Under the pieces are notes generated by a model that saw only the letters and a program-made list of their open reading frames with translations, was not told where the DNA came from and searched no databases. Both the position numbers and the translations under genes were made by a program. From assembly GCA_946479285.1 (NCBI GenBank), contig CAMLFH010000007.1, positions 62,001 through 126,000 on the forward strand: a DNA stretch of 64,000 nt. The letters run 5' to 3'. Origin of the DNA: an uncultured Flavobacteriales bacterium. GTDB lineage: Bacteria > Bacteroidota > Bacteroidia > Flavobacteriales > Crocinitomicaceae. Of the stretch, positions 4,506 to 59,663 are shown in pieces (within the stretch, counting starts at the first letter, position 1; every line of letters starts with the position of its first letter).

Positions 4506-4603
4506 TTCTCCCTTTTGGGTAAAAATAGAGAAAGGAATCAACAATGCAACCGAATTATCAACCAAAACAACCTGTCAGCGATTAAATTCCCTAACTTCGG
4601 GAT

Positions 4604-4611: not shown

Positions 4612-4633
4612 CAACTCTCATTTCAGGACATTC

Positions 4634-5428: not shown

Positions 5429-5442
5429 AGAAATTCATTCGC

Positions 5443-5486: not shown

Positions 5487-5492
5487 TATAAA

Positions 5493-7673
5493 TCAATTCG
5501 CCATTTCACTCATAAACTTGATGCGCATCAGGCGCAACTCCTCTTCGGTATAATCACCGTCGAATTCATGGTAAGCGGTTGCCAGATCATCTGTTTCGGC
5601 TTCGGAGAAATAGTCGTAAATCTCCTCCTGATTATCTGAATCAAGGATGTCGTCGATGTAATAATTGATATTCACCCGGGTTCCGGAAGAAACAATTGCT
5701 TCAATTTCTTCAATCACTTCATCCATCGATTTACCCTGTGCTCTTCCAATATCTTCCAAAGGAAGTTTTCTGTCGATGTTTTGGATCAGCTGTACTTTCA
5801 ACACTGATTTATTGATCAGTGATTTAACTACCAAATCCTGTGGTCTGTCGATATCGTTTTCTTCTACATATTGGTGAATCATTTCAATGAAAGGCTGACC
5901 GTAGCGCTGTGCTTTACCGGCACCAACTCCTTGGCAATTCGTCAATTCGTCAATCGTGATCGGATACTGGAAACACATATCTTTCAAAGTCGGCTCCTGG
6001 AAAATAACAAACGGTGGAATGTTATTCTGTTTAGAAAGCACTTTTCTCAGATCAATCAGCATATCATACAAAACCTCATCAAAAGCGCCGCCTTTTCCGG
6101 GAGCAACAATTCCATCATCCTCATCTGAAGCAGAATAATCGTGTTGTTTCAACAAAGTAAATGACACCGGATTCGCTAAAAATGCATGTCCATTTTCAGT
6201 AAACTTAAGTGTTCCGTAAGTTTCAATGTCTTTGTAAAGCAATCCCGCAACCACTGTTTGTCGGATCACAGCATTCCAGAAATGCTCATCACGGTCTTTT
6301 CCAACTCCGAATAACGGAGCCTGATCGTGGCGGTAACTTTTAATTTCAGCGGTAATTCCTCCGGAAAGGAATGCACAAACGTGTTTTGCTTTTTGTTGTT
6401 CCTGAAGGAAATCAACTACCTGAAGCAGTTGGTGAACGAACTCTTTTCCTTCCAGTTTTTCACGCGGATGTTTGCAGTTATCACACATTTCATTGCATCC
6501 CCTTTCATCGAATACCTCTCCGAAGTAATGCAAAATGAATTTACGCCGGCAAACAGAAGTTTCCGAATAAGAAACAATTTCACTTAAGAGCTGCTTTCCG
6601 ATTTCCTGTTCCGCAATCGGTTTTCCCTGGAGGAATTTCTCCAGTTTCTCAATGTCCTTGTAGGAATAGAACGTAATACATTCTCCAACTCCGCCGTCGC
6701 GGCCCGCTCTACCCGTTTCCTGGTAATAACTTTCCAGTGATTTCGGAATATCGTGGTGGATGACAAAACGCACATCCGGCTTGTCGATTCCCATTCCGAA
6801 TGCAATGGTTGCAACGATCACATCGACATCTTCCATCAGGAACATATCCTGGTGTTTTGCGCGAGTTGTTGCGTCCAATCCGGCATGGTATGCCAATGCA
6901 TTGATTCCGTTTACCTGAAGCAATTCGGCCATTTCCTCTACTTTCTTCCTGGAAAGACAATAGATGATCCCCGATTTACCTGCTCGCTGACGGATATATT
7001 TAATGATTTCTTTTTCTACGTCTCTTTTAGCACGAATTTCATAATACAGGTTATCTCTGTTGAAAGAGGACTTATATAAAGTCGCATCCATCATATTGAG
7101 ATTCTTCTGAATATCTGCCTGTACTTTTGGAGTAGCAGTAGCAGTTAGTGCAATAATTGCCACATCGGATATTTTCTCGAAAATCTCGCGAAGCCTGCGG
7201 TATTCCGGACGAAAATCATGCCCCCATTCGGAAATACAGTGCGCTTCATCGATAGCAAAGAAAGAGATTGGTACGGAAGTTAAAAAGTCAATATTTTCCT
7301 GTTTCGTCAGTGATTCAGGGGCAACATATAGTAATTTTGTTTTACCGGCGAGAATATCTTCTTTCACCCGGTTAATTTCTGTTTTGCTGAGAGATGAATT
7401 CAAAAAATGCGCAATTGAGTTGTGATCACTCACATTTCGGATCGCATCCACCTGATTTTTCATCAGTGCAATCAATGGAGAAACTACAATTGCCGTACCT
7501 TCTGATAATAATGCCGGAAGCTGATAACATAGTGACTTCCCACCACCTGTGGGCATAATTACAAACGTGTTCTTTTTTTGCAACACATTGGTAATTATAT
7601 CTTCCTGTTTTCCCTTAAATTGATCAAAACCGAAAAATGTCCTAAGTGCTCCCTTTAGATCATGCTGATCCAT
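5493..7673 (-). CDS. recQ: ATP-dependent DNA helicase RecQ
   Basis: 726 residues with complete RecQ architecture. The Walker A is MPTGGGKSLCYQLPAL (~residues 40-55), the DEAH box is AIDEAHCISEWGHDFRPEY, and motif VI is QETGRAGRDG. A zinc-binding domain with cysteines in CRRKFILHYFGE and GCNEMCDNC follows, then a winged helix. The HRDC domain spans ~residues 530-600 (LYDMLIDLRKVLSKQ to GAGKAQRYG). A further ~110-residue acidic C-terminal tail is common in Bacteroidota RecQ. It unwinds DNA 3'-5' in recombination and repair. The gene stands alone, convergent with thyA. Confidence 0.96.
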   Translation of the reverse strand: MDQHDLKGALRTFFGFDQFKGKQEDIITNVLQKKNTFVIMPTGGGKSLCYQLPALLSEGTAIVVSPLIALMKNQVDAIRNVSDHNSIAHFLNSSLSKTEINRVKEDILAGKTKLLYVAPESLTKQENIDFLTSVPISFFAIDEAHCISEWGHDFRPEYRRLREIFEKISDVAIIALTATATPKVQADIQKNLNMMDATLYKSSFNRDNLYYEIRAKRDVEKEIIKYIRQRAGKSGIIYCLSRKKVEEMAELLQVNGINALAYHAGLDATTRAKHQDMFLMEDVDVIVATIAFGMGIDKPDVRFVIHHDIPKSLESYYQETGRAGRDGGVGECITFYSYKDIEKLEKFLQGKPIAEQEIGKQLLSEIVSYSETSVCRRKFILHYFGEVFDERGCNEMCDNCKHPREKLEGKEFVHQLLQVVDFLQEQQKAKHVCAFLSGGITAEIKSYRHDQAPLFGVGKDRDEHFWNAVIRQTVVAGLLYKDIETYGTLKFTENGHAFLANPVSFTLLKQHDYSASDEDDGIVAPGKGGAFDEVLYDMLIDLRKVLSKQNNIPPFVIFQEPTLKDMCFQYPITIDELTNCQGVGAGKAQRYGQPFIEMIHQYVEENDIDRPQDLVVKSLINKSVLKVQLIQNIDRKLPLEDIGRAQGKSMDEVIEEIEAIVSSGTRVNINYYIDDILDSDNQEEIYDYFSEAETDDLATAYHEFDGDYTEEELRLMRIKFMSEMAN

Positions 7674-46701: not shown

Positions 46702-47526
46702 ATGGTTCAGAATATGGAAACAGATAACATCCGCACGGAAATAGAACACGAAATCTTAAAAGCACAAAAAGGACACCGTCGCGGAAAAATTGCAGGTGGA
46801 TTAGCCATAGTTTTCTTTGGTGTAATCTATCTTCTAGAACAATTGGGATACAACACTCCCAGTTATTTGCTCAGCTGGCAAATGATCCTCATTGTAATCG
46901 GGATTATTGTATTGGTCAAACACAAATTCAGCAAACCGCACGGATACCTGATGATTATTATTGGAAAGCTTTTCCTTTTGGCAGATTGGTATCCTGAAAT
47001 AATCAACGTCAAGATTATTATTCCGGTTGTAATTATCCTGATTGGTCTTGCAGTTGTTTTTCTCTCGAATAACAGATGTGGAAAACACAACCGAAGAAAG
47101 AAACGCTTTACCCGCGAAAACTGGAAAGAAATTCACGAAGCACAACAAAGAGGTTTCAGTTATTATAAGTACAACGAAAATGATTTCATTGACAGCGTAA
47201 GTTTTTTCGGGGGAATTAACAAAACGATCGTCAGTAAAACCTTTAAAGGAGCAGACATTGTTTCTTTCTTCGGCGGAACAGATATCAATCTTTCGCAGGC
47301 AGATTTCCAGGGGCGGATCGTGATTGATGTAACAAACATTTTTGGAGGCACGACTTTAACGATTCCAAACAACTGGGAAGTGATTTCGGAGGTGGCCAGC
47401 ATTTTCGGAGCTTTTGAAGACAAGCGTCCGCAATACCAAAGAGAATCAGGCGAAGAAAGTAAAGTCATTGTTCTGAGGGGAACCTGTATGTTTGGAGGAA
47501 TTGAAGTGAACAGTTTCAGTAAATAA
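46702..47526 (+). CDS. LiaF-like membrane protein (cell-wall stress response type)
   Basis: 274 residues. After a short basic N-terminus, residues ~28-125 contain four membrane helices as in LiaI/LiaF-type proteins (GLAIVFFGVIYLLEQLGY, MILIVIGIIVLVKHKF, IIIPVVIILIGLAVVFLSN). The C-terminal ~110 residues are the LiaF C-domain: a series of repeating strands, VSFFGGINKTIVSKTFKGAD, IVSFFGGTDINLSQADF and ASIFGAFEDKRP. LiaF proteins regulate envelope-stress kinases. The kinase gene starts 6 bp later, supporting such a role. A near-consensus -7 (TACCTTTA) lies at 46686-46693. Confidence 0.88.
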   Translation: MVQNMETDNIRTEIEHEILKAQKGHRRGKIAGGLAIVFFGVIYLLEQLGYNTPSYLLSWQMILIVIGIIVLVKHKFSKPHGYLMIIIGKLFLLADWYPEIINVKIIIPVVIILIGLAVVFLSNNRCGKHNRRKKRFTRENWKEIHEAQQRGFSYYKYNENDFIDSVSFFGGINKTIVSKTFKGADIVSFFGGTDINLSQADFQGRIVIDVTNIFGGTTLTIPNNWEVISEVASIFGAFEDKRPQYQRESGEESKVIVLRGTCMFGGIEVNSFSK

Positions 47527-47531
47527 AAAGC

Positions 47532-48557
47532 ATGTTTTTAAAAACAAGTACAAGAGTGCAGTTGCTTTTCATCGTTTGGACGGTGATTGCAACTCTTGTG
47601 TTTTTTTGTGTGCTCTTAATCCATCATTATCCTTTTGATATTGTTTGGAAAGACACCCTTTTTTCCGGTTTGCTGATTTCCGTTATCTCCCAGATCATTT
47701 ATTTCATCCAGACCTATTACCACGCGAAAAGACCGGTCAACTTTTCAAACTTCGGGTTAGTTTTAGTTTTAACTGCCGCTTATCAACTCTTAATAAACAG
47801 CGCTTTTAAACTGGTCCTGGGTGATGAACGCTGGCGGGAATATATTCTTCCGTTTGAAGGAGCCCGCGCATTCATTGTCTTTTTCATACTTATTTCCGTG
47901 AGCCTTTATTGGTGGATCAATAAGAATCAGCAAATTCAGTCACAAGTCCAGCAGCAGCTGATTGAACAGGAACGCGCATTGACAAAAGCCGAATTGGACA
48001 ACATTCACCAGCAATTGCAGCCTCACTTTTTATTCAACAGCCTGAATTCGATAGGTGCGCTAACAGAAATAAACCCGAAAGAAGCTAACCGGATGATTCT
48101 TTTATTGAGTGATTTCCTGAGAGGTACTTTGCGGAAAGACATTCAAACACTGATTCCAATTTCCGAAGAAGTTGAGCAGATTAAACGTTACCTGGAAATT
48201 GAAAAAATTCGTTTCGGACACCGTCTGAAAACAGAGTTTGATATTGATGAAGGCTGTATGAAAACATTGGTTCCGCCGCTTTTGTTGCAGCCGGTGATTG
48301 AAAATGCAATCAAATTCGGATTATACGGCTCAACGGATGAAGTCACGATCTATGTGGGAGTAAAACACCAGGATAATGGCTTAGCAATCGAAGTCAGAAA
48401 TCCTTTCGATTCTGAATTCACGCAATTCAAAACCGGCAAAGGTTTTGGACTTACAAGTATCAAACGCAGATTAATGCTGCTTTTTAATCAATATGACTTA
48501 CTAACTACCGAGAAGCAAGAGAAACTATTCATTACTAAAATTCTGATCCCAAAATGA
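47532..48557 (+). CDS. LytS-type sensor histidine kinase (four membrane segments)
   Basis: 341 residues: four membrane helices in residues ~8-130, a short coiled coil (~133-155) and a His_kinase domain. The acceptor His is in HQQLQPHFLFNSLNSIGAL. PLLLQPVIENAIKFGLYG is the N box and GKGFGLTSIKRRL the G box. No extracellular sensor domain, so it may sense via the LiaF-like neighbour. Overlaps the regulator gene by 4 bp. Confidence 0.9.
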   Translation: MFLKTSTRVQLLFIVWTVIATLVFFCVLLIHHYPFDIVWKDTLFSGLLISVISQIIYFIQTYYHAKRPVNFSNFGLVLVLTAAYQLLINSAFKLVLGDERWREYILPFEGARAFIVFFILISVSLYWWINKNQQIQSQVQQQLIEQERALTKAELDNIHQQLQPHFLFNSLNSIGALTEINPKEANRMILLLSDFLRGTLRKDIQTLIPISEEVEQIKRYLEIEKIRFGHRLKTEFDIDEGCMKTLVPPLLLQPVIENAIKFGLYGSTDEVTIYVGVKHQDNGLAIEVRNPFDSEFTQFKTGKGFGLTSIKRRLMLLFNQYDLLTTEKQEKLFITKILIPK

Positions 48558-49279
48558 TTAAGGCGTTCATAGTAGACGACGAACCTTTGGCAAGAGAAGT
48601 CGTTAAGAAACATTTACAAAAGCACCCGGATATTGTCCTGGTAGGAGAAGCAAATGATGGGTTTGAGGCCCTGAAGTTAATTCCGGAAGCGAAACCCGAT
48701 TTATTGTTTTTGGATATCCAAATGCCGAAGATCAATGGTTTTGAATTATTGGAATTACTGACTGAAAATCCATCCGTTATCTTCACTACCGCATTTGATG
48801 AATTCGCGCTAAAAGCATTTGAAGTAAATGCTCTGGATTATTTATTGAAACCGTTTTCAGAAGATCGTTTTGACACGGCAATCAGCAAAAAACGAAATTC
48901 AGAGTTAGTCAGCGACTTCAAGAGAGACATTCCGCTTCAAATCATTCATGAGCAAAACCGCATTGTGGTCAAGGACGGAACCGAGATCAAGATCATTCCC
49001 ATTAACGATGTGGATTATATTGAAGCTTACGATGATTATGTGAAAATCTATCAGGGAAAAAAGTACATTCTGAAAAAACAGACCATGAACCATTTCGAAC
49101 AGGTACTTCCAAAGGATCAGTTCATTCGCATTCATCGCTCTTACATTTTAAATGTCAATCAATTGACCAAGATTGAGTCCTACGAAAAAAATAGTTATGT
49201 GGCCATTTTGAAAAGTGGAACGAGCATTCCAATCTCGCGTTCTTCTTACAGTGATTTAAAATCCAGGCTGGGTTTATAG
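48554..49279 (+). CDS. LytTR-family response regulator
   Basis: 241 residues. The receiver domain has AFIVDDEPLAREVVKKHLQK, the phospho-Asp in DLLFLDIQMPKINGFELL and FTTAFDEFALKAFEVNALDY. The LytTR domain (~140-240) includes IPINDVDYIEAYDDYVKIYQ, FIRIHRSYILNVNQLTKIES and ISRSSYSDLKSRLG. It is translationally coupled to the kinase and forms with the LiaF-like gene a three-gene envelope-response operon. An intrinsic terminator follows the gene. Confidence 0.93.
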   Translation: MIKAFIVDDEPLAREVVKKHLQKHPDIVLVGEANDGFEALKLIPEAKPDLLFLDIQMPKINGFELLELLTENPSVIFTTAFDEFALKAFEVNALDYLLKPFSEDRFDTAISKKRNSELVSDFKRDIPLQIIHEQNRIVVKDGTEIKIIPINDVDYIEAYDDYVKIYQGKKYILKKQTMNHFEQVLPKDQFIRIHRSYILNVNQLTKIESYEKNSYVAILKSGTSIPISRSSYSDLKSRLGL

Positions 49280-49393: not shown

Positions 49394-49494
49394 TTTTGAT
49401 TATTTTTTAATCAAAAAATAATGAATTACATCATGCTATAAAACCCAATAAATACTCATTAAAAATGAAAAAAGATTATTTTTTAATCAAAAAA
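49394..49494. promoter_or_regulatory. Duplicated AT-rich dyad upstream of the 49.6-kb gene cluster
   Basis: A 21-bp sequence, beginning GATTATTTTTTAATC and ending in an A run, is present twice (49398-49418 and 49474-49494), 76 bp apart. Each copy has the dyad GATTA-N5-TAATC; in the first copy it extends to 9-bp arms (TTTTGATTA / TAATCAAAA). The second lies 12 bp upstream of the -33 box, a typical activator position. Confidence 0.65.
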
Positions 49495-49506
49495 ATTGCA
49501 AAAAAG

Positions 49507-49538
49507 TTTGGTGGATCAATAAAGATTTCTTATCTTTG
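49507..49538 (+). promoter_or_regulatory. Strong promoter of the 49.6-58.6 kb cluster
   Basis: TTTG (49507-49510), 20 bp, TATCTTTG (49531-49538): the best match to the Bacteroidota -33/-7 consensus in the window. Predicted start near 49545 gives a ~65-nt leader before the GTG at 49609. The 49280-49608 gap otherwise holds the terminator of the previous operon and the duplicated dyad. Confidence 0.8.
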
Positions 49539-49608
49539 TAAGGTAGCAAATCGGTAAAAGAGATGCTGCGGAAAAACAACCTTATTATTAACCATTATAA
49601 ATCGAATC

Positions 49609-50667
49609 GTGAAACGAATTATCATCCTTTCCGTTGGTACGGCAACTCCTCATGTCATCAAAGCTCTTTCTGAAGCATTTGACATCAATCAGGACCTTCT
49701 GTTTAAAATTCTTTACAATGCACCTGCCGTCTTTTTAGACAATGCAGAAGAAGAATTGGCAAAGAAAGCATTTCTCATTTTAACCGAACTTGGGCTGGAA
49801 GTTTTGGTTCAAAACACAGAAGAAACAGCTCCTCTTCCTACAGAAGCTCTTGATGTTTCCGTATACATCAAAGATCCGGTGAAGCTAAGCACCGTCAACA
49901 AGCAATTGTCTGAATTCCTTGGCTGCAATGAAAGTGAATCCCTTCAACTTTTGCTGAATGAACCGAGCGTGGTTTTAGGTGGGGTTTCTATGGCAACCGC
50001 AGAAAGTCTGCAAAAAAGAATCGATGCAGAAGTCATCGCCAGCAATCCAAAGCTGGATTTATATACCATAGAATTTACTGCAAGCGCCGAAACCGATCGC
50101 CAGAAACTGATCAACCTAATCAAAAGTCAGGAAATTGCTATCCCGGGTGGAGAAACCAGATGGGTACGCAATTTAACCTACGCACAACTAAATCAGTTTT
50201 TAACCCGCTACCGTTCCCAGCATGAGATGAAGATTTACAACCAAAGCTATTCCAGGTTCAGGATCCTCCTGGAAGACTTTGACTTAACGAGTGCAACTCA
50301 AACAGATTTCCTGGTTAACGAAATCGGCATGCCGCAGGAAGCACTCGAAGAGATTCACTCAAACCTTCCTCTTTTATTGGATGAATCTGTCAATTACGGA
50401 GAACTCGAGCAAAAACTCGCCTTGTACAAGCAAGTTGGATTGCGTTGCTCCGATGAACAGATTCCTTTCGGAAAGTATTCCCTCGCAGTGAGTAACATCA
50501 CAGATTCCACAAAGTTCCTTGAAATCCTGGATAAGTTTTTCAAAGATGTCACTTTCAACCAAAGCTCCGGAACCTGGAAGACCCCTCTTCCGCTCGCAAG
50601 TATCCTGAGCAGGCTTCTCGAAAAGCAACTGGAAATCCTGGGATGTGAAATCGAAATCGAATACTAA
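49609..50667 (+). CDS. Protein with repeated ribosomal-L7/L12-C-domain-like units
   Basis: 352 residues, GTG start, no signal peptide. Residues 1-68 (IIILSVGTATPHVIKALSEA, ending ILTELGLEVLVQ) follow the strand-helix-helix-strand order and key residues (VIKA, APAVFL, ELGLEV) of the ribosomal L7/L12 C-terminal domain. Three further units with weaker likeness follow at about 80-155 (VYIKDPVKLSTVNKQLSEFL), 200-275 (RFRILLEDFDLTSATQTDFL) and 280-352 (GKYSLAVSNITDSTKFLEIL). It lacks the L7/L12 N-terminal dimerisation and hinge regions, so it is not the ribosomal protein. It is the first gene of a large cluster. No function is known to me; a binding or adaptor role is inferred. Confidence 0.62.
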   Translation: MKRIIILSVGTATPHVIKALSEAFDINQDLLFKILYNAPAVFLDNAEEELAKKAFLILTELGLEVLVQNTEETAPLPTEALDVSVYIKDPVKLSTVNKQLSEFLGCNESESLQLLLNEPSVVLGGVSMATAESLQKRIDAEVIASNPKLDLYTIEFTASAETDRQKLINLIKSQEIAIPGGETRWVRNLTYAQLNQFLTRYRSQHEMKIYNQSYSRFRILLEDFDLTSATQTDFLVNEIGMPQEALEEIHSNLPLLLDESVNYGELEQKLALYKQVGLRCSDEQIPFGKYSLAVSNITDSTKFLEILDKFFKDVTFNQSSGTWKTPLPLASILSRLLEKQLEILGCEIEIEY

Positions 50668-50672
50668 GACCA

Positions 50673-51230
50673 ATGAAAGAAAACCAATCTAACCTCCATC
50701 TCCAAATCGCTGAAAACGGAAAAATCCTCGCTTTAAAAGGAGATCACAAAGAAGCATTGCGCCACTACAAAGAGGCCATGCGTATGTGTCAGACAGTTGA
50801 TAATTCAGAGCTCTTCCTGCAGCACTACAGTTTATGCGCAATGGAATCCCTGGAATTGATGGAGGCACACGAAGAAATCATCACTTTTTGTGAGAAAAGC
50901 ATTGATTTCCTGACACCAAAAAAGGCCGAACGTACAGATGAATGGTTCAGGAAAAACCTCGCATCCCTCTGGGAACGGAAAGGAATCCAGTGTATCTACC
51001 TGGATGAAAAAACAGAAGCGACTGAGGCTTTGGACGCAGCTCTTAAAGAAGCAAAGGAAATATCTATGCCTTTAGCAAAAGAGCTACTGAACTGGCTTCG
51101 AAGAGGTTATGCGATTTCTCACCAAAAAGTGCGTGATCTACAAAACAGGCATCACTACTTTACTGTTCGTAAAGAAAATGTCAACGAAAAAATAGCAGTT
51201 CAACTGCCGGAAATGATCAATCCGTTCTAA
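50673..51230 (+). CDS. TPR-like helical protein
   Basis: 185 residues, all-helical, no signal peptide. The opening LHLQIAENGKILALKGDHKE and EALRHYKEAMRMCQ is a good tetratricopeptide unit; two further helix pairs (~55-85 and ~95-130, KGIQCIYLDEKTEATEALDA) look like degenerate units. The C-terminus (~140-185) is less ordered. It begins 5 bp after the L7/L12-like gene, so they are co-translated. It probably mediates protein contacts for the genes that follow. Confidence 0.62.
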   Translation: MKENQSNLHLQIAENGKILALKGDHKEALRHYKEAMRMCQTVDNSELFLQHYSLCAMESLELMEAHEEIITFCEKSIDFLTPKKAERTDEWFRKNLASLWERKGIQCIYLDEKTEATEALDAALKEAKEISMPLAKELLNWLRRGYAISHQKVRDLQNRHHYFTVRKENVNEKIAVQLPEMINPF

Positions 51231-51241
51231 ACCCCGTTTTA

Positions 51242-51361
51242 TACGAAATACAGGCTGCCTTATTTGTGCGCACAAATAACTGTCCTCCTGAAACCCATCA
51301 TTAGAATGACCCGGGCACACCGGTTACGCCTTCATTTTTCGGACGCAGCCTGTATTTCGTA
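51242..51361. repeat. 120-nt element bounded by a perfect 17-bp inverted repeat
   Basis: TACGAAATACAGGCTGC (51242-51258) pairs exactly with 51345-51361. Inside is a perfect 20-bp palindrome TTATTTGTGCGCACAAATAA (51260-51279). It occupies almost the entire 155-bp gap between the TPR-like gene and the first family gene. It could be a structured RNA, a stoichiometry-setting hairpin or a small mobile element; no coding potential. The motif GCAGCCT recurs in the hairpin at 58599-58636, at the far end of the cluster. Confidence 0.85.
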
Positions 51362-51385
51362 CAAAACAATTAAAACAATTAATTT

Positions 51386-53209
51386 ATGAGTGATTTAACC
51401 AAATTCAGTGAAGGAGCTTCCATTCTGCAGCAGGTTGATGTCAGTGACATCTTTAAAAACCTTGCCCTCGGAATTGCTGAAGCTCAACAGAAACTAGATG
51501 ACAATTCGATAGCACAGGCTATTAAATTGGCAGAAACCCAGATCAACGGTGTTTCCTTGTTGGAATTAGGGTTCGCTCCGGTATTCTATGCATTCCAATA
51601 TGCAGACATCAGCGCCAGTATCAATTTAAGAATGGCCTTGAAAGAATCATTGGAATTCGGATTCGGATTGGATCTTCAGATAGCCAACAACAAAGGATAT
51701 TCCGAAGATACGCATGATTTCTTAAGCGAAGAAAGCTACACCGAAACTTCAGAAGAGTACAAAACTTCCAGACAGGTTAGTTTCCGCGCCAAAGAAAATA
51801 AGGCGATCAAAATCAATAACAAATTCGTTAAACAAAGCGAATCACTGGCTGCAAAAAGCCGCTTGGAGAAGTTGAAATACGACATCGTTCACGAAGCAGG
51901 TGTAGACCAGGTTTACGACGAAGTTCAGTCAGAAAAAGTAACCAGCAATCAAAGCCGCGGAGTGGATGTCTTCATGGATTCAGGATTCCTTCGAATTGAA
52001 GAAGGAGCAGATTTTGGAAAAACCGGAGCCGGTTTATTTAAAATCACCGATCTTCAAGCTCCTACGATAATTGCTGATCTGGACGGTAGTATGACGAACG
52101 TCTTTCAAACGGCAGCGTCTTTGGGAGCAATGGTACCGAGTGCTTTGACAGCAAACAGCGGTGGAGTTGTATACGGCTTAAGCAAAACCGGGATTTTACA
52201 TGTCCATAACGGATCCGCCTGGGAACAAATTTCAAGTAAGATCTATTTCAGCTTCAACAGCGATGAGATTACCTACAACAAGGATTTGAAATACACAGAG
52301 GACGTAAATAACCTGGTTCATACACATCCAGGTGGAAGTGCTTTCGGAAACAAGAACCATGACAAACATCAGTTGATTCACAAAGTTCTTCGATTCATCA
52401 AAAGTAAAGACTCGGATGCCGGAATTACAATCAAAGGAATGACCGATCCGAAAGGAGGAGACAATCCGAGTAACAAAAGTTTGGCAAAAAGACGTGCTGA
52501 AAAAGTTCGTGATCACATCTTTGGAACTACAGCTTCTGTCAATATAGACACTACTGCGGTAACCAATGCATCCGGAAACAGTGACTTATTAAAGCGTTAC
52601 GCTGAGATCGAGTTGGATGCTGATTACATTGTGTTCATTGACGGACAAATTACCAAGGATGCAAACCCAACAAAAACGGATACCGTTCCAAACAAGTTTG
52701 TCTATGCGAATGACACTTCGACTGGTCAATTCAAGCTTTTGAATGCGAAATATGGGGCATTGACTTTAGCAATTACCAAAGCTACTTTCAACGAGATCGT
52801 AACTGAAGCAAAAACTCAGATTACAAACCATTCGTATGAATTGTCGACTGAAGGAACTCATTACTTTTTAGATGATGAGGCGATTGTAAAACTTTCCCTG
52901 TATACCAATGAATCGGAAGAAATCACAATCGAAGAAAACTCCGAAAACGACAGTCAGGGAACAGAGAATTCCAGCTCTTATATTTGGTCCAAATCAAAGA
53001 ATGAAAAGTCCAAAATAAGTGATGCTGCAAGTAAAAAGTCCCAGAATAACTCGTTTGCTTTAGGTGCAAGTGTGGATTTCAGAATGTCTCGTCAGTTTGA
53101 AATGTCTATGGAAGGAAATGCTGCTATGTCTGCAAGACTGGTTGCGGTTCCTGCTCCACAAGACTTTGTCGGATTCCTTCGAACTGTCTATACAAGCGAG
53201 GAAGGATAG
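51386..53209 (+). CDS. IAEAQ-family protein A with inserted OmpA-like domain
   Basis: 607 residues, no signal peptide. The N-terminal unit (VSDIFKNLALGIAEAQQKLD, residues ~19-38) and LLELGFAPVFYAFQYADISA (~58-77) are shared with the next genes. Between the two family strands (~66-85 and ~556-593) lies a ~470-residue insertion. Its middle part (286-382) is OmpA-like: IYFSFNSDEITYN, ITIKGMTDPKGGDNPSNKSL and AKRRAEKVRDHI, retaining the Asp and Arg that bind diaminopimelate in true OmpA domains. The C-terminal strand ends ARLVAVPAPQDF. It lies ~25 bp before the next member and after the 120-nt inverted-repeat element. Function unknown. Confidence 0.66.
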   Translation: MSDLTKFSEGASILQQVDVSDIFKNLALGIAEAQQKLDDNSIAQAIKLAETQINGVSLLELGFAPVFYAFQYADISASINLRMALKESLEFGFGLDLQIANNKGYSEDTHDFLSEESYTETSEEYKTSRQVSFRAKENKAIKINNKFVKQSESLAAKSRLEKLKYDIVHEAGVDQVYDEVQSEKVTSNQSRGVDVFMDSGFLRIEEGADFGKTGAGLFKITDLQAPTIIADLDGSMTNVFQTAASLGAMVPSALTANSGGVVYGLSKTGILHVHNGSAWEQISSKIYFSFNSDEITYNKDLKYTEDVNNLVHTHPGGSAFGNKNHDKHQLIHKVLRFIKSKDSDAGITIKGMTDPKGGDNPSNKSLAKRRAEKVRDHIFGTTASVNIDTTAVTNASGNSDLLKRYAEIELDADYIVFIDGQITKDANPTKTDTVPNKFVYANDTSTGQFKLLNAKYGALTLAITKATFNEIVTEAKTQITNHSYELSTEGTHYFLDDEAIVKLSLYTNESEEITIEENSENDSQGTENSSSYIWSKSKNEKSKISDAASKKSQNNSFALGASVDFRMSRQFEMSMEGNAAMSARLVAVPAPQDFVGFLRTVYTSEEG

Positions 53210-53234
53210 TATTAACCTATTAAATTCCTAGCAA

Positions 53235-53696
53235 ATGGCAGCAATTGAAACAATCACAAGCACGCTCACCAATTCCCCGCTTTCGTCGATGATCGAAAAC
53301 ATGGGGATTTCGGTAGCAACAGCGCAGGCAGCATTGGACAGCAATTCCATCGAAATGCTTAAAAGCCTTGCTTCAAGTACCGTAGAAATCGGAGGGAATC
53401 AAATCAGCCTATTGAATTTAGGTTTTGTTCCCAGTTTCTATGCTTTTACGGAAGCTAGTTTTGATGCAAAAATGGATTTTGCGATGTCGGAATCAACTGC
53501 TTTCGATGTAAATGGAGTGGTTTCAGTGGAAACCAAGGTAGTTTCGACTACCGTCAGTGCAGGTTACGCACGTAAATTCGATCAATCCGCTTCGGCTTCT
53601 TCGAGTATTGCAGCCCGCATGGTTTCACTGCCTCCACCCGAAAATCTAGTTACACTTCTGAAAAACTTAAGCACAGAAGGAAACACAACAACGTAA
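53235..53696 (+). CDS. IAEAQ-family protein B (minimal member)
   Basis: 153 residues, the shortest full member and so the best view of the core. N-terminal helix SSMIENMGISVATAQAALDS (~17-36), first strand LLNLGFVPSFYAFTEASFDA (~62-81), a short connection, second strand (SAGYARKFDQSASASSSIAA, then RMVSLPPPENL), and a final short helix. No signal peptide, no cysteines. The VPxP motif of its relatives is LPPP here. Preceded by the TATTAACC leader motif (53210-53217). Confidence 0.66.
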   Translation: MAAIETITSTLTNSPLSSMIENMGISVATAQAALDSNSIEMLKSLASSTVEIGGNQISLLNLGFVPSFYAFTEASFDAKMDFAMSESTAFDVNGVVSVETKVVSTTVSAGYARKFDQSASASSSIAARMVSLPPPENLVTLLKNLSTEGNTTT

Positions 53697-53723
53697 TCTT
53701 TTAATCAACAAAAACAACAAAGT

Positions 53724-54611
53724 ATGTTTGAAAACACCAAACCACGCATTGGTCAGGAACTTCTTGACGTGCCAATGGGCGACATGATTCGCCAAATGGC
53801 TTTTGCAATCGCAGAAGCACAAATCGTTCTAGATCAGAACTCTATCGATGTAGCCGAAATGATGGGCGGTTTAACAACTGTCACGGATGAGCAGGGAAAT
53901 GTTACTTTCCACGACAGCCGCGTTTATTTCGGAACTGAAAAAATCACGAGAGCCGAAGCAATTGCTCGTCACAATGCGACGAACAATGTTCAGCAAAAAG
54001 CCGAGATTCGTGCATTGCTTGGAAGTACTTACACACCAATTTTGGACAACACTATTCCTAGTGGATTCACTCCTGGAACTACTGCTGTTCCGGTTGGAAA
54101 ATACATTGACTACCAAGGTTTTTACTACGTAAGTACAGGCGCTTCAACTGCCGCAAGCCAGGTTTCATACGGAGATTTAGAGATTCTTTCAGCAACTCCA
54201 ACTACGGATGCTACGGCTCCATTGTTAAGTCTTCCACGAAGAATTTCTATGTTGGAATGTGGTTTTACACCAACCTTCTATCAATTCGTTGATACGATCA
54301 TTGAAGTAAAGATTTCCATCCGTTACACGCAGGAAGGAAATACGAGCACTGATGTAAACAACAATTTAAGATCAAGTGCAGCTCGTATCGGTCTTGGATT
54401 CGGAAGAATCAAATTCGGGCGATCCGTTCAAACTTCACAGGTTAATGCAAGCTACGCTCAGAAATACAGCTACTCAGCTGAAGGATCGAGTTTACTTCGT
54501 ACCAAATTGGTTCCGATTCCTGCTCCTGCAGTTCTGGAGCAGCGTATCCAGCGAATGATGGAGGAAGAGTTCAATAACGAAACAATTCAGCCAGCACAAA
54601 CTCCGGCATAA
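53724..54611 (+). CDS. IAEAQ-family protein C
   Basis: 295 residues. N-terminal helix VPMGDMIRQMAFAIAEAQIV (~13-32), then LDQNSIDVAEMMGG, a ~140-residue insertion between helix and first strand (rich in Thr, Ala and Gly, IPSGFTPGTTAVPVGKYIDY), first strand LECGFTPTFYQFVDTIIEVK (~178-197), and second strand VNASYAQKYSYSAEGSSLLR (~240-259) ending TKLVPIPAP. The tail is a helix (EQRIQRMMEEEF). The position of the insertion differs from that in protein A, showing two tolerant loops. Followed by a strong hairpin. Confidence 0.66.
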   Translation: MFENTKPRIGQELLDVPMGDMIRQMAFAIAEAQIVLDQNSIDVAEMMGGLTTVTDEQGNVTFHDSRVYFGTEKITRAEAIARHNATNNVQQKAEIRALLGSTYTPILDNTIPSGFTPGTTAVPVGKYIDYQGFYYVSTGASTAASQVSYGDLEILSATPTTDATAPLLSLPRRISMLECGFTPTFYQFVDTIIEVKISIRYTQEGNTSTDVNNNLRSSAARIGLGFGRIKFGRSVQTSQVNASYAQKYSYSAEGSSLLRTKLVPIPAPAVLEQRIQRMMEEEFNNETIQPAQTPA

Positions 54612-54618
54612 TTAACCC

Positions 54619-54645
54619 GGGCAGCTGTCAAAGCGGCAGCTGCCC
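54619..54645 (+). promoter_or_regulatory. Intra-cluster hairpin
   Basis: Perfect 9-bp stem GGGCAGCTG / CAGCTGCCC with a 9-nt loop, 8 nt after the stop of protein C, without a T tract. Probably a processing or stability element rather than a full terminator, since genes continue in the same direction. Confidence 0.75.
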
Positions 54646-54669
54646 TATTAACCCTTAATCAATAAGCAT

Positions 54670-55233
54670 ATGATAAATGTTGGAAGAGAGTTATTGAATG
54701 CTCCGTTTCCTGAATTAGTTCGCACGCTTGGTGTAGGGATTGCCGAGGCTCAATATGCTCTCGATCGTGTTTCTATCAAAATCGCGCAATTAATGGCGGG
54801 ATTCAAACTAAATAATGAGGGAAACCTGGAACGTGACGAAACTGCGTTGATCAAACTCCGAGAAGGAGATGATGGAGTGAGTTTATTGGCACTTGGTTTC
54901 ACCCCTACGTTTTACCAGTTTGTGGAAACATACATTGAACTCAAATTGGCTATTTCGATGAAACAAGAACAGGAAGCCAAAGCCGAATCCAAAGTCGCAG
55001 GTGCTACCTGGTCACCGGTCGGTATAATTGCCGCTTCTGTTAATGCAAGTTACTCTCAGAAATACCAATACGAAGCAAACGGAAGTTCCGAAATGCGAAC
55101 CAAACTCGTAACAGTTCCTGCTCCAGCCATGTTTGAAAGTCGTTTGAAACAATTGATGGACGAAACTGAAATTGCGAGAATTCAACCTGGTCTCGATGAA
55201 GAAAACGATGAAGAAGACGAGAACGAAGATTAA
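54670..55233 (+). CDS. IAEAQ-family protein D
   Basis: 187 residues. Helix FPELVRTLGVGIAEAQYALD (~10-29), first strand LLALGFTPTFYQFVETYIEL (~73-92), second strand VNASYSQKYQYEANGSSEMR (~128-147), then TKLVTVPAPAMFESRLKQLM and a very acidic tail ending EENDEEDENED. Closest to protein C in the second strand and tail. No signal peptide. It begins 24 bp after the hairpin; the leader has the TATTAACC motif at 54646-54653. Confidence 0.66.
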   Translation: MINVGRELLNAPFPELVRTLGVGIAEAQYALDRVSIKIAQLMAGFKLNNEGNLERDETALIKLREGDDGVSLLALGFTPTFYQFVETYIELKLAISMKQEQEAKAESKVAGATWSPVGIIAASVNASYSQKYQYEANGSSEMRTKLVTVPAPAMFESRLKQLMDETEIARIQPGLDEENDEEDENED

Positions 55234-55262
55234 CTATTAACCCATTCTACTAAAACAAGATT

Positions 55263-56336
55263 ATGACAAAAAGTTGGAAAAAACTCGTCAAAGCCAAGGA
55301 TTCAGGTTCCAAAAACGAAAGCGAAAACTCTTTTAGTAATAACCAATTTACCCTGGATGAAATTGCATCCCAAAATGAGAAATTGGAAGATTTGTTGAAG
55401 GAACGGCAATCTTTGGAAAATGAGATGGGCAATTTGCTTCAACCAAGTAATCCTGTAGAAGAAAATCCTCGGTTCACCGGTACTATCGACTCGTTTAAAA
55501 GTAAACGTGAGAAGGAAAAGAACAGAGCCGCTCAAAAGAAAAAACTGGAAGAGCGGCTCTTAAAAAAAAGCAAAGAATTGAAGAAATGGGAAGAAACTCA
55601 GGATCTCCTGAGAGAGAAACTGTCCCTAAAAAACAAGTCTTTGCTTAAAAAAGAAACCGACCAAGATCCTTCAACCAGCCAAAAAGCACGAAAATCAATC
55701 AAAGAAAGTTCGGAGAAACTTTGGCCCAAAACCAAGTCAATCCCGAAAGAGAAAGATGTAATAGAAAGAAAGAAGAAAGTGCAAACCGAACTGGTCGAAA
55801 AAGTAAAAAAAATCCCTGAGAAAATCAAGGAATTAAAAAAACCGATCGATGCATTCGGACAGAAGGATCTTGTGAAGTTTCAACAAAAACTGGATCACGT
55901 GAAAGAGACTGCGGATATTCCAAAAAAGATTCGCAGGATAAAAGATGACTGGGATGAAAAACGGGAAATTCAAAAGGAAAAACTACGGGAAAAAGTAGGT
56001 TTTAAAAAACTTGCGGAGAAACTGGAAGAAGTCAAACGCTTCGGTGAATCAACGAAATCGGAGAGCAAAAATTCTCTGGAATCCCTCGAATCAAAGGTGC
56101 CGGAAATAAAAGGAATGACCGAAAAACTGGAGAAAGAGCTGTCCTTAGATGATCGCAAAAACAAAGTTTCAGAAAATGCTTCTGCAAAAAAAGCAGATCA
56201 AAAAGAAACGGAGCAAAAGGAGACAGAACGCAGAGAAAAACTGAAAGAACGATTTCTATCCAGAAAAAAGGCCGAACGAAAAGACGAAGAACGGTCGAGT
56301 AGAAAAAAAGAACGCAAAAACGAAAAATACAATTAA
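55263..56336 (+). CDS. Highly charged Lys/Glu-rich coiled-coil protein
   Basis: 357 residues, mostly Lys, Glu, Arg and Ser with long heptad-like stretches: ENEKLEDLLKERQSLENEMG-type segments near residue 40-60, KEKNRAAQKKKLEERLLKKS (~80-100) and basic repeats to the end (ERKDEERSSRKKERKNEKYN). Predicted coiled coil with disordered segments and a high positive charge. There is no signal peptide and no IAEAQ motif. It sits between family members D and F, with a 1-bp gap to F, so it is part of the operon. It may scaffold the family proteins or bind nucleic acid; both are inference. Confidence 0.6.
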   Translation: MTKSWKKLVKAKDSGSKNESENSFSNNQFTLDEIASQNEKLEDLLKERQSLENEMGNLLQPSNPVEENPRFTGTIDSFKSKREKEKNRAAQKKKLEERLLKKSKELKKWEETQDLLREKLSLKNKSLLKKETDQDPSTSQKARKSIKESSEKLWPKTKSIPKEKDVIERKKKVQTELVEKVKKIPEKIKELKKPIDAFGQKDLVKFQQKLDHVKETADIPKKIRRIKDDWDEKREIQKEKLREKVGFKKLAEKLEEVKRFGESTKSESKNSLESLESKVPEIKGMTEKLEKELSLDDRKNKVSENASAKKADQKETEQKETERREKLKERFLSRKKAERKDEERSSRKKERKNEKYN

Positions 56337-56337
56337 A

Positions 56338-57006
56338 ATGAGTTCAACAACAACCACCAATTCACTGGCCCTGCATGAAATAGTTCTCAGCATAGCGGAC
56401 AGTTTGAATGAAGCGCAGGAAACACTGCGCAGCGTGTCTCCCTATGATGAATATGGAAGGCCAAATACCTTATACCATGTTCCTTACCTGGACTTTAACC
56501 TGGAAGTTATTTCACAGTTTGAAACAAGTCAAACAGGAAGTTCAGGTGGAAACGGTATTCGTTTCACTCCATTTCGAAGTACAGAAACAACCACCAAAAA
56601 TCAGGGAGTAATAACCAGTAACATTTCCGGAAAGTTTGTGGCAGCAATGCCAAACGAGGGATTATCACAGGTACTATTACAAGGCTCTGCCGTAGCAAAT
56701 GAAGTAACTGGTACATACGCATCCTATACATTGACGGTCAAAGCAATTCAACCAAATAACGAATTCATTGCCGGTCAGCGTATAGAACTAAACTTTGATG
56801 CAACAACATCGAGCGGCATCAACTCAGGAATAAACGTGATAGCTCCTGTTTTTATGGATTCAAAAGACGGATTCACCAAATCTGAAGATGGCAGTTTCTC
56901 TGTAAAAGTCAGACTTGGACTTACCGATTACAATGCAGGAAGGACCTTCATTTTCAAAGCCAATAGTGGAACACAATTTACATCAATCGCAATAAGCAAG
57001 CCATGA
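56338..57006 (+). CDS. Diverged IAEAQ-family relative with beta-rich tail (F)
   Basis: 222 residues. The N-terminus (ALHEIVLSIADSLNEAQETL, ~10-29) has the helix and NEAQ-x2-L version of the family motif. YLDFNLEVISQFETSQ and VITSNISGKFVAAMPNEG occupy the positions of the two strands. The remaining ~115 residues are a beta-rich region (YTLTVKAIQPNNEFIAGQRI, FSVKVRLGLTDYNAGRTFIF) that looks like an Ig-type domain. No signal peptide. Overlaps the next gene by 4 bp (ATGA). Confidence 0.58.
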   Translation: MSSTTTTNSLALHEIVLSIADSLNEAQETLRSVSPYDEYGRPNTLYHVPYLDFNLEVISQFETSQTGSSGGNGIRFTPFRSTETTTKNQGVITSNISGKFVAAMPNEGLSQVLLQGSAVANEVTGTYASYTLTVKAIQPNNEFIAGQRIELNFDATTSSGINSGINVIAPVFMDSKDGFTKSEDGSFSVKVRLGLTDYNAGRTFIFKANSGTQFTSIAISKP

Positions 57007-57920
57007 TACCATTTGATTTTTTTATTCTAGAGTTTATGCTTTATACCTGGAAGAATGAGCCAGCCGAAAATTTCCCGGTAAAAATTCTATACTACAGTTT
57101 TGAGGATTCCGCCTGGGTAACTGTTTTCGGAGGCACTGTTAAGACCGGAAATTTAAGGCTCACTGAGCAGGTAAGAGATGCCACTCCGGCTCAAGAAAAA
57201 TTTTACTCCCTTATAACAGCTGGAAGTTTGCCTCCAATTCGCGTGTGTCCACAAGATATACTCAATGAAGATCTCACGAAAACGCCTGTAATCACAAGTA
57301 CTTTTACCTTTAATCAATTATCGGTTGATGGTCAGGAGGCGTTTCAAATTGATTTCGGCAAATCGTATATGATTCAGGATATTTTAATGGTCGATTCAAA
57401 CAGTACATTCGATGAAATTATTCCGGTTGCGAATTACTTTCCGATTACTGTTACAACAACAGAGCCGGAAACTCCACCTATTCCGATCCAGGATTTGTAC
57501 ACAAACCTGGTTTCCGAAATAGTTTCAGGAAATAATAACAACGCCGATTCCCCTTATAAACTGTCTAACATTTCAGTAAAACTGAAAGCATTGATCCATG
57601 AAGAGGGAGGCTCAATGAGCGCTTCATTACTAAATCTGGAGAATTCAGAGAATGTTAACGGAGATGCGATCAGCGAACTTGTTTTTGACATTACTCCTGT
57701 AAGCAACCGGGAAGAAAACAACATAGCTGTTCCGAACTTACTGGGTCTAACCGAAACTGCCGTCCGCAGAATTCTGAAATCCCTTGGATTAAAGCTAAAC
57801 CCGGTTTATCAGAAAAAAGACACCGTTGTTAACGGAGATTCTTTCAAGCAATCACCGACTCCCGGAACAAATGTTCCTCCAAATAGAATAGTAAACGTAA
57901 TTTTTAGCAAACATGAGTAA
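57003..57920 (+). CDS. PASTA-domain protein with diverged family beta-unit (G)
   Basis: 305 residues. The first ~150 residues are a beta-rich region of unknown type (FPVKILYYSFEDSAWVTVFG). Residues ~165-230 (LYTNLVSEIV, LSNISVKLKALIHEEGGSMS, AISELVFDITPVSN) resemble the two-strand part of the family. The C-terminal ~65 residues are a PASTA domain: VPNLLGLTETAVRRILKSLG, then a strand and the SPTPGTNVPPNRIVNVIFS turn and strand. PASTA domains usually bind muropeptides or beta-lactams outside the cell, but there is no signal peptide. Overlaps its neighbours by 4 and 8 bp. Confidence 0.62.
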   Translation: MIPFDFFILEFMLYTWKNEPAENFPVKILYYSFEDSAWVTVFGGTVKTGNLRLTEQVRDATPAQEKFYSLITAGSLPPIRVCPQDILNEDLTKTPVITSTFTFNQLSVDGQEAFQIDFGKSYMIQDILMVDSNSTFDEIIPVANYFPITVTTTEPETPPIPIQDLYTNLVSEIVSGNNNNADSPYKLSNISVKLKALIHEEGGSMSASLLNLENSENVNGDAISELVFDITPVSNREENNIAVPNLLGLTETAVRRILKSLGLKLNPVYQKKDTVVNGDSFKQSPTPGTNVPPNRIVNVIFSKHE

Positions 57921-58587
57921 TACAAACAACCCCGTTCAATTATTCAGCGAACTTTTAGGAGGTCCGTTGGGTGAATTGATCAGTTCAGTTGGTCAGGGAG
58001 TCGGCGATGCGCAGGCAGCCCTGGACAAGGGAGCACTTCAACAAACGATGGATATTTATGACATCAGCAAAGACGAAGATCGGTCTAACGAAGAATTAAA
58101 TCTCGTAAACTTAATCCGGGAAATGGGCTACCAGCCTACATTTTATTCCATTCCTGAAACAGAAGTGGAAGCACAAATTTCCTTATCGCTCGACCTGAAA
58201 TCAGAGCAATCCACTCCCTCAAACGGTTACACACTTTCTAAATATAAAGTGAACGCAACTCCGCTGAATGCAGGAAATATGAACCGATATGGAATTCAGG
58301 CAGATGCTATGGCAAAACTGAAATTCAAAATTGTTCCTGTTCCTCCACCTCCGGGAAGTGCAGACCTGAGACTTGTTCCGGATCTTAACCGCTGGAATGA
58401 ATCAACTAAGGAAACGATTCTTAGACTCGGATTTGCCTACGAATTAAGATATGAAGATGACGAATTGATCACTGATGAAGAAGGATTAGATGGTTATGAT
58501 ATCGTAGAACAAACCCCGATAGCCGGAACTATTTCCAAAGCCGGAAATCTGTTGGTTCTAAAATTAGCCGAACACGTAGATCAATAA
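57913..58587 (+). CDS. IAEAQ-family protein H with C-terminal PASTA domain
   Basis: 224 residues. Helix GPLGELISSVGQGVGDAQAA (~16-35) and LDKGALQQTM; first strand MGYQPTFYSIPETEVEAQIS (~74-93); second strand ending AKLKFKIVPVPPPPGSADLR (~133-152). The last ~70 residues are a PASTA domain (LVPDLNRWNESTKETILRLG, EQTPIAGTISKAGNLLVLKL). Thus the family tail can be a helix (A-D) or PASTA (H, and probably G). No signal peptide. Last gene of the cluster; a hairpin follows at 58599-58636. Confidence 0.66.
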   Translation: MSNTNNPVQLFSELLGGPLGELISSVGQGVGDAQAALDKGALQQTMDIYDISKDEDRSNEELNLVNLIREMGYQPTFYSIPETEVEAQISLSLDLKSEQSTPSNGYTLSKYKVNATPLNAGNMNRYGIQADAMAKLKFKIVPVPPPPGSADLRLVPDLNRWNESTKETILRLGFAYELRYEDDELITDEEGLDGYDIVEQTPIAGTISKAGNLLVLKLAEHVDQ

Positions 58588-58598
58588 ACCCTACCCAT

Positions 58599-58636
58599 AA
58601 ATTCGGGATGCAGCCTAAAAACTGTGTCCCGGATTT
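58599..58636 (+). terminator. Hairpin at the end of the cluster
   Basis: Near-symmetric arms AAATTCGGGATGCAG / CTGTGTCCCGGATTT with a U-G pair and a small internal loop. No long T tract, so termination may be partial. The ATG at 58608 in this hairpin is a poor candidate start for the next gene. Confidence 0.6.
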
Positions 58637-58673
58637 AAAGATCATCAATGCAAACCTTATCACCAACCACCAC

Positions 58674-59663
58674 ATGCTAAATCTCAAAAAAACGACTGCT
58701 ATTTTCGACCATGTTGCGGAAATAGACAGCAAAAAAGAATATTGGTATTTCCGGACTGATGGCGGAGATTCTTACACGGATTTTATTCAAAACGGATACA
58801 TCGGAATCGATTGGAATTTTATTGCCGCGGAAGATATCCGGGAAGAAAACCTCGATTATCTCCGAAAATCTGTTATCACAAACAGCTACAAATACCGCGA
58901 TGTCCCATACGACTGGCTGGGATCGGGAGAAAAATCATCTGTCACCAAAACCATCAACAAACTTTTCACTTTCAAAAATCTTAAAAAGGGCGATGTAATC
59001 CTGATTCCGTCTGAAGATGCCGAGTTTTTCAGCATTGGTGAAATTGCAACTGATGAAATCTATGCTGCAAATGAAGCAGATTTGTCAACCGGAAGATTTA
59101 TCAAACGAAGAAAAGTAAACTGGCTCAAAAAATCGATCAGCCACCAGTATTACAATTCATTGTTTTTCTTATTGAAACATTCCAATGCCATCGTTTCTAT
59201 TAAAAAACATGCGGATTTCATTGATTCACTCATGGAAGAATTGTACACCAAGGATGGCGATTGTTTTTTGTCTTTGAGAATTAATAAGGAATCCGAAATC
59301 AGTCTGAAAGACCTGAAAGACTTATTTGATAATTACCTGGGATTGATTTCCAAAATCAACGATGATTTCAATTTCGGAGAAAAAGTGGACACAACAACGG
59401 TGAAACTGAGTTTAAATTCCCCGGGATTCATCAATATCAAACTGCCGGTTGGAAAATCATTGATCTTAGCCAGCCTGATTATTTCCATGTTTTTGAATGG
59501 CTGCTCGAACGAGGAAATCAGCCTAAAAATAAACAGTGAAAATATTCCAACAGATTATATTCCTTACATGGATTCCATACAAAACATCCGGAAAAACCTG
59601 GAAGTGGAGCACGATACCATTTTTGACCGCCTAACCAATTACAGTTATGGAAACAGCAAGTAG
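58674..59663 (+). CDS. EVE/PUA-like N-terminal domain protein with membrane segment
   Basis: 329 residues from the ATG at 58674; a start at 58608 lies inside the preceding hairpin. Residues ~15-150 (KEYWYFRTDGGDSYTDFIQN, GYIGIDWNFI, FKNLKKGDVILIPSEDAEFF, SIGEIATDEIY) resemble the EVE/PUA-like modules found at the start of Mrr-type restriction and other defence proteins. A helical region follows. Residues ~255-275 (GKSLILASLIISMFLNGCSN) are a probable membrane helix. Its stop overlaps the next membrane-protein gene by 17 bp. A role in defence is inferred from the domain, not shown. Confidence 0.55.
   Translation: MLNLKKTTAIFDHVAEIDSKKEYWYFRTDGGDSYTDFIQNGYIGIDWNFIAAEDIREENLDYLRKSVITNSYKYRDVPYDWLGSGEKSSVTKTINKLFTFKNLKKGDVILIPSEDAEFFSIGEIATDEIYAANEADLSTGRFIKRRKVNWLKKSISHQYYNSLFFLLKHSNAIVSIKKHADFIDSLMEELYTKDGDCFLSLRINKESEISLKDLKDLFDNYLGLISKINDDFNFGEKVDTTTVKLSLNSPGFINIKLPVGKSLILASLIISMFLNGCSNEEISLKINSENIPTDYIPYMDSIQNIRKNLEVEHDTIFDRLTNYSYGNSK

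Follow-up and report, generated by a model that had tools for sequence, protein, structure and literature searches.

The gene cluster described here belongs to an uncultured Flavobacteriales bacterium of the family Crocinitomicaceae (assembly GCA_946479285.1) and lies on a stretch of 64,000 nucleotides (contig CAMLFH010000007.1, positions 62,001 to 126,000, forward strand). We call this stretch the window and give all coordinates relative to it. Based on the list of open reading frames (ORFs), the cluster comprises ten co-directional ORFs on the plus strand, g1 to g10, which span positions 49609 to 58587. An initial annotation, made from the sequence alone, had described nine co-oriented genes with short gaps or overlaps; this arrangement was confirmed, while the number has to be corrected to ten. 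The median intergenic spacing across loci is -4 bp in the pairs g1-g2 and g8-g9 and 3 bp between g3 and g4; in no other pair measured does it exceed 31 bp.

The cluster starts with g1 (49609-50667, 352 aa), whose first ~70 residues resemble the L7/L12 C-terminal domain, and the TPR-like g2 (50673-51230, 185 aa); both families have a normal cysteine content. In g3 (51386-53209, 607 aa) a core domain is split into two parts (residues 14-102 and 537-605) by an insert that contains an OmpA-like domain (325-407). The minimal core protein is g4 (53235-53696, 153 aa), followed by g5 (53724-54611, 295 aa), a core protein carrying an insert, and the core protein g6 (54670-55233, 187 aa). The least conserved gene, g7 (55263-56336, 357 aa), encodes a highly charged protein and, as judged by eye, a coiled coil. 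A diverged core and a C-terminal immunoglobulin-like (Ig-like) region form g8 (56338-57006, 222 aa), while g9 (57003-57920, 305 aa) has a beta-rich N-terminus by eye, then a half in common with g10, and a PASTA domain at 242-303. Finally, g10 (57913-58587, 224 aa) combines the core with a C-terminal PASTA-like region.

Pfam searches support the domains named in the initial annotation. TPR was matched by g2 (E 9e-6), OmpA by g3 (E 1e-5, just under Pfam's cut-off) and PASTA by g9 (E 1.5e-11) and, weakly, by g10 (E 0.015). The L7/L12 C-terminal domain of g1 was weak for the single sequence (E 0.25), and the family profile matched solved bL12 with an E-value of 4e-5. No convincing Pfam match was obtained for g4 to g8, and NCBIfam, PHROGs and PADLOC delivered nothing of weight for the ten products beyond these domain types. 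The OmpA domain was found in 55 of 58 g3 proteins scanned and PASTA in all 56 g9 proteins scanned (counts refer to length-filtered aligned rows, 58 of 75 g3 and 56 of 73 g9 proteins with a hit), which fits the peptidoglycan recognition proposed earlier. The conserved aspartate and arginine of the diaminopimelate site, D354 and R370 of g3, are present in at least 90% of the 58 rows and presumably act in peptidoglycan binding; a strict OmpA motif matched just 21 of 72 g3 proteins. Furthermore, Big_1 was matched by 9 of 58 g8 members, the g8 of the window not among them, and Big_2 by 3 of 120 listed g4 homologues, being C-terminal in both sequences read. Such optional Ig-like tails on core proteins suggest surface decoration. 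An outlier in size is the g9 of locus L076 (Anaerolineales contig, 2807-7447), with 1546 aa compared to a median of 412 elsewhere.

The paralogous family noticed in the initial annotation was recovered by profile comparison: g3, g4, g5, g6, g8 and g10 form a single family, with E <1e-12 for every pair among g3, g4, g5, g6 and g10 and 1e-7 for g8-g10, while g9 has the second half of g10 in common (1e-10). The structure model of g6 (predicted local distance difference test, pLDDT, 65.7) comprises a 30-residue helix, a hairpin of two 18-residue strands (pLDDT ~60 to 80) and a C-terminal helix; that of g4 (pLDDT 60.7) comprises helices and a short strand pair only. Out of 76 core sequences, 72 have an amphipathic strand 1 and 3 an amphipathic strand 2. 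In 68 of 72 g3 proteins, g4-like pieces occur at both termini with a median of 427 residues between them, and the OmpA domain lies in this interval. Going by the low-confidence g6 model, the insert would sit at the tip of the hairpin.

A relation to DUF2589 (PF11655) had been guessed at before. None of the ten products matched the Pfam model at E up to 1, and g4 shares only 14% identity with the family. However, against a DUF2589 profile built from nine sequences, g4 gave a full-length alignment of 153 columns (hhalign score 41.6, E 3e-5, probability 72%), while 40 block-shuffled profiles reached a maximum of 21. With the merged core profile the score was 37.3, and 20 shuffles did not go beyond 24; with g6 it was 31.3 (maximum of 40 shuffles 22). 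For g5 the score was 28.2, and since a reversed control reached 27.9, g5 alone is no evidence for homology; g3, g8 and g10 singly scored 21-25, close to controls. Judged from these alignments, g4 is distantly homologous to DUF2589 over its full length, and the earlier guess is thus supported as distant homology. The DUF2589 protein of L088 ends, by eye, in an Ig-like tail that resembles the C-terminal region of g8. DUF2589 was matched in 1 of 20 carriers of the cluster and in 6 of 99 genomes of the class, and we know of no established function for it. In L083 (1486-2022) the DUF2589 gene sits beside further small genes of no known kind. AF0414-AF0417 of Archaeoglobus are reported to be DUF2589-related (PMC3949148). 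Reduced loci with two or three family members were found as well (L001:11643-14422, L109, L110, L111, L112), one of them located on a plasmid of Sphaerotilus; within this wider family, the arrangement with ten genes is the most elaborate.

To describe the spread of the cluster, contigs were scanned with the g6 alignment. The 81 loci consist of the window and the best 80 of 129 confirmed hits, and because only these best hits were kept, locus counts lean to near relatives. At E up to 0.001, g6 has 576 homologues, the best named ones in Fluviicola, which marks the window as part of a Fluviicola-type genome (Bacteroidota). Iterated hidden Markov models for all ten genes, with mechanical gene calls in GC-rich loci, recovered an identical gene order. 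The nine scored genes (the variable, fast-evolving g7 was excluded) are all in order on a single strand in 64 of 81 loci, and chance clustering was rejected on this basis. Thirteen of the 17 exceptions lie at contig ends, including L041 and L076, for which the order was flagged too; in L076 further core genes follow g10. In L047 all nine genes are there, with an order disturbed by over-long ORF starts, L042 and L075 carry at position 3 a short core protein without OmpA, and L045 is without several cluster genes. The initial annotation had named lack of synteny in related genomes as evidence against it; instead, the order is conserved far beyond related genomes.

Based on record titles, the loci belong to seven phyla: Bacteroidota, Pseudomonadota, Myxococcota, Gemmatimonadota, Latescibacterota, Verrucomicrobiota (Opitutales) and Chloroflexota (Anaerolineales), the last four with one metagenome-bin contig each. 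Nevertheless, carriage of the cluster is rare: in class-wide samples the g6 profile had three matches per class, one of them the chosen carrier, among 295 Bacteroidia, 274 Gammaproteobacteria and 289 Alphaproteobacteria. Besides the carriers, the two gammaproteobacterial and two alphaproteobacterial genomes matched in these samples (one clear match, three weak; L109-L112) have just two or three cluster-type genes each. In a concatenated tree of seven families (FastTree; long branches were flagged), alphaproteobacterial isolates nest among gammaproteobacterial ones, and Phycocomes, Mangrovicoccus and Roseitranquillus group with Marinobacterium and Saccharospirillum with full local support. The pairwise distances measured for the nine genes are correlated with one another (Spearman 0.38-0.85, 37 loci). 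Both results fit genes that are transferred and inherited as one unit, while shared species history alone would also give the correlation. Classes were assigned from record titles and the tree, with L006 counted as Bacteroidia. This 4.6 Mb record is titled Glaciecola amylolytica THG-3.7, yet its cluster and flanks are of the Fluviicola type (85% identity in g6, same neighbours, same operator); it is probably mislabelled.

With regard to cellular location, hydropathy was used instead of a dedicated signal-peptide predictor. None of the ten window products has a membrane-like segment by this measure (highest 19-residue hydropathy 1.19), and across all families tested a single g8 member has a hydrophobic N-terminus, in line with the previously noted lack of signal peptides. 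The cysteine content divides the cluster. The products of g3 to g10 without g7 contain 0.13% cysteine compared to 1.19% in g1 and g2 of the same loci, a ninefold difference that points in the same direction in 62 of 65 loci (Wilcoxon p 3e-12); g4 is cysteine-free in 73 of 74 loci. Distal flanking ORFs contain 1.17%, and the structural proteins of extracellular contractile injection systems (eCIS; n=11), taken as a yardstick, 0.5%. The simplest reading would be that g1 and g2 stay cytosolic and the other products reach the outside without Sec export.

The control region of the cluster is conserved as well. The duplicated upstream dyad reported in the initial annotation is an exact repeat of the palindrome GATTA-N5-TAATC, with a distal copy at 49398-49418 and a proximal copy at 49474-49494. 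Both are conserved in all six Fluviicola-type loci examined (the window, L002, L003, L004, L006 and L007): the half-sites are invariant (12 of 12), the spacers vary, and the palindromes lie 65-77 bp apart, upstream of the promoter. Within the window the palindrome occurs at these two places only, and in each of five whole genomes the tandem pair occurs once, at the coordinates of the cluster promoter, compared to 0 for a reversed-pattern control. A dedicated regulator is likely. The previously described promoter at 49507-49538 (plus strand) is present as TTTG-N20-TAnnTTTG, which we take to be the promoter consensus of the Bacteroidota type, and is conserved together with the dyad in these six loci; however, the pattern alone is weak, with 6 hits in the window compared to 3.1 expected. 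The leader of g1 (49534-49611, plus strand; alignment A14, six loci) has a mean column identity of 83%. It opens with an invariant TTTGTAAGGTAGCAA in the six loci, followed by a variable stretch and a second invariant block; a structured leader RNA is possible. Between g2 and g3, a 23-nt inverted repeat (51236-51258 and 51345-51367, 86 nt apart, 96% complementary) might be a small element or an RNA structure. In contrast, the hairpin formerly placed at the end of the cluster could not be reproduced: 58560-58700 holds no inverted repeat of at least 12 nt, just an imperfect pair of ~10 nt by eye.

Some loci have genes for cell wall degradation next to the cluster. After dropping 21 loci (cut, incomplete or close relatives), 99 nearest genes (within 500 bp, either strand) were found. 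The family search used 96 of them, without the two genes of L007 and the upstream one of L006. Nine of the 96 matched peptidoglycan-hydrolase families: five Amidase_2 (L008, L042, L070, L074, L077), two CHAP (L028 and L030, both with PG_binding_1, one CHAP below Pfam's cut-off), one M15_4 (L062) and one M74 (L075). L074 and L077 are near relatives, and the hydrolase gene of L030 is divergent. Among 99 control genes, drawn randomly out of 311 distal ORFs, no peptidoglycan-hydrolase family was matched by two or more. In L038, moreover, the second gene after g10 matches GH108 and the third GTA_holin_3TM, and in L054 a C39-like peptidase is the second gene upstream. None of the ten hydrolase-type flanking proteins tested has a signal-like N-terminus by hydropathy.

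In the window itself, the next three longer downstream genes gave no convincing Pfam family. The gene behind g10 (58608-59663), likewise with no convincing Pfam family and with a possible membrane segment near its end, is found in six of seven Fluviicola-type loci (not in L003). The region just upstream of the cluster (46702-49279) encodes a LiaF-like membrane protein, a sensor kinase of the His_kinase type and a response regulator that resembles the LytTR regulator of L002; relatives of kinase and regulator are also found upstream in L002-L004. A two-component link was considered and dropped, as Response_reg matches 4 of 96 nearest genes. In L070 (13928-14965) a single ORF directly behind the cluster fuses an Amidase_2 domain to CobU (cobinamide kinase), an unusual combination that perhaps arose through insertion into a cobalamin operon; an ORF related to it occupies the corresponding position in L073 and L078.

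Carrier genomes often encode a phage-type contractile sheath outside the cluster. The family PF04984 was matched in 39 of 72 carrier genomes (80 carrier loci, with L005, L013, L016, L027, L029, L064, L067 and L080 left out). Compared to genomes without known carriage, it was enriched in Bacteroidia (19 of 26 carriers and 13 of 116 others, p 6e-10) and Alphaproteobacteria (10 of 18 and 14 of 114, p 1e-4), while no association was found in Gammaproteobacteria (6 of 23 and 16 of 113, p 0.21). The enrichment was also seen among Bacteroidia genomes of at least 4 Mb (19 of 20 and 9 of 24, p 9e-5), a split that uses the sizes of G021-G118, all assumed to be part of the Bacteroidia background sample. 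Related carriers, among them six Caulobacter as well as several Fluviicola and Kordia, were counted separately, which makes these p-values too small. Eleven sheath neighbourhoods were read: seven (L115-L120, L125) look like eCIS operons by eye, the other four not or doubtfully so, and no listed ORF in the eleven matches any cluster family tried (g7 was not among these). The co-occurrence may reflect either a shared lifestyle or a functional link.

Comparison with characterised systems gave no direct counterpart. A strong match to a characterised particle or secretion system, which the initial annotation had named as evidence against its reading, was found for none of the ten products, neither in Pfam, NCBIfam, PHROGs and PADLOC nor in solved-structure searches, two of which returned one chance-level row each. 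Its statement that no phage gene is visible agrees with PHROGs, where the OmpA region of g3 is the sole match. Pfam, NCBIfam and PHROGs revealed no sheath, tube, baseplate or AAA+ ATPase families in the cluster, Pfam no GvpA-type gas-vesicle wall protein, and phage genomes no homologues of g6 and g3, the two tested. Because no defining gene was found, we file the cluster under none of contractile systems, phage tails and gas vesicles. Anti-phage defence was rejected as well, since PADLOC matches only the TPR of g2 and the PASTA region of g9 and none covers the core proteins.

Our preferred, still tentative reading is that this horizontally spread operon encodes a soluble, peptidoglycan-targeting hetero-oligomer that is built in the cytosol, most likely freed by lysis and unrelated to known tail parts. 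The assembly would consist of the paralogues g3, g4, g5, g6, g8 and g10 plus g9, with g1 and g2 as probable cytosolic assembly factors and g7 perhaps as scaffold. The OmpA domain of g3 and the PASTA domains of g9 and g10 would bring peptidoglycan recognition to it. Formed in the cytosol and set free most likely by cell lysis, it could bind cell walls and might attack them together with partner hydrolases, as an analogue of lysis-released phage-tail-like particles made from unrelated proteins. The initial annotation had also proposed a cytosolic assembly; cysteine depletion and lysis-type neighbours support assembly in the cytosol and a later extracellular location, while the particle or filament itself is something we infer. 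One might go further and speculate about a new class of extracellular protein machine with no relation to phage tails: a cytosol-assembled family of hairpin proteins, aimed at peptidoglycan, with programmed lysis under its own operator and often beside contractile injection systems. We consider this broader idea possible, yet more doubtful.

Several points weigh against the lysis-freed hetero-oligomer. No particle has been seen, both structure models are of low confidence, and neither has a significant match to any solved fold. L042 and L075 do without OmpA at position 3. Most nearest genes (87 of 96, those of the window among them) are not recognised hydrolases, and single distal hydrolase hits may hide beyond the 25 families printed for the control. 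Membrane-like segments were detected by hydropathy in 14 of 72 g1 and 9 of 73 g8 proteins, with 0-3 members in each other family. Finally, low cysteine is also compatible with proteins in the periplasm or at the surface, and coiled coils may be poor in this residue by nature.

One alternative is a surface or periplasmic structure that leaves the cytosol by a non-Sec route not recognised so far and works on the envelope of the producer itself. Peptidoglycan-binding and Ig-like domains together with low cysteine would suit it; however, none of the ten genes is a recognised secretion gene, and signal-like N-termini are absent save for one g8 member. We regard it as unlikely. Equally unlikely in our view is a role as trans-acting partner or anchor of eCIS, for example in docking or firing them at peptidoglycan. 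The sheath enrichment in Bacteroidia and alphaproteobacterial carriers and the seven eCIS-like neighbourhoods speak for this role, but 33 of 72 carriers have no sheath match, the Gammaproteobacteria show no association, the eleven sheath loci read have no listed ORF of the cluster families tried, close relatives inflate the counts and genome size explains a part of them.

A domesticated, highly diverged non-contractile phage tail of the F-type tailocin kind would account for endolysin and holin behind the L038 cluster and for the Ig-like tails. It also draws on a viral model, BFVD A0A516MP19, that resembles the g6 model (E 2e-4), and on a 4,044-base 'Bacteriophage sp.' record that encodes a DUF2589 relative (37% identity, E 8e-15). 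Against these hints, PHROGs recognised the OmpA region of g3 only, no viral contig was confirmed for g6 (0 of 112 pattern matches in the viral scan) and no phage record has a g6 or g3 relative. Consequently, we rejected viral origin as the main explanation and hold such a tail to be improbable. Least of all do we expect a cytosolic organelle- or gas-vesicle-like structure in the living cell: many paralogues of one small alpha/beta protein and soluble products would fit, whereas the cytosol would offer little use for three domains that recognise peptidoglycan, and Pfam revealed no gas-vesicle family.

We judge it rare for ten genes to keep their synteny across phyla when none of the core proteins is characterised. 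Searches of open-licence PubMed Central papers on DUF2589, the domain combinations and eCIS listed no recognisable description of the cluster. If a particle is made, it would represent a nanomachine of bacteria that belongs to none of the phage-tail, gas-vesicle and secretion-system lineages and has a clear molecular target, and DUF2589 would gain a functional context. The cluster-specific operator makes the system testable in culturable Fluviicola, Kordia, Halomonas and Caulobacter.

Compared with known systems, the cluster shares some features with several. Signal peptides or membrane anchors are usual in known proteins that bind peptidoglycan through PASTA or OmpA-like domains. The cluster versions possess the same domains, including the conserved Asp and Arg of OmpA in g3, but show neither signal peptide nor anchor by hydropathy. 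Phage endolysin-holin cassettes are echoed by the two genes behind the L038 cluster and by amidase, CHAP, M15 and M74 neighbours elsewhere; however, these hydrolases are optional, belong to different enzyme families and stand beside few loci, with one holin only. For tailocins and eCIS, lysis by endolysin and holin is described as release route (PMC8910223). While the cluster differs from eCIS and R-tailocins in having no sheath, tube, baseplate and AAA+ ATPase families, it resembles them in being multi-gene and patchily spread, in structural proteins without signal peptides, in hydrolase or holin neighbours in some loci and, for two classes, in its frequent presence in the same genomes.

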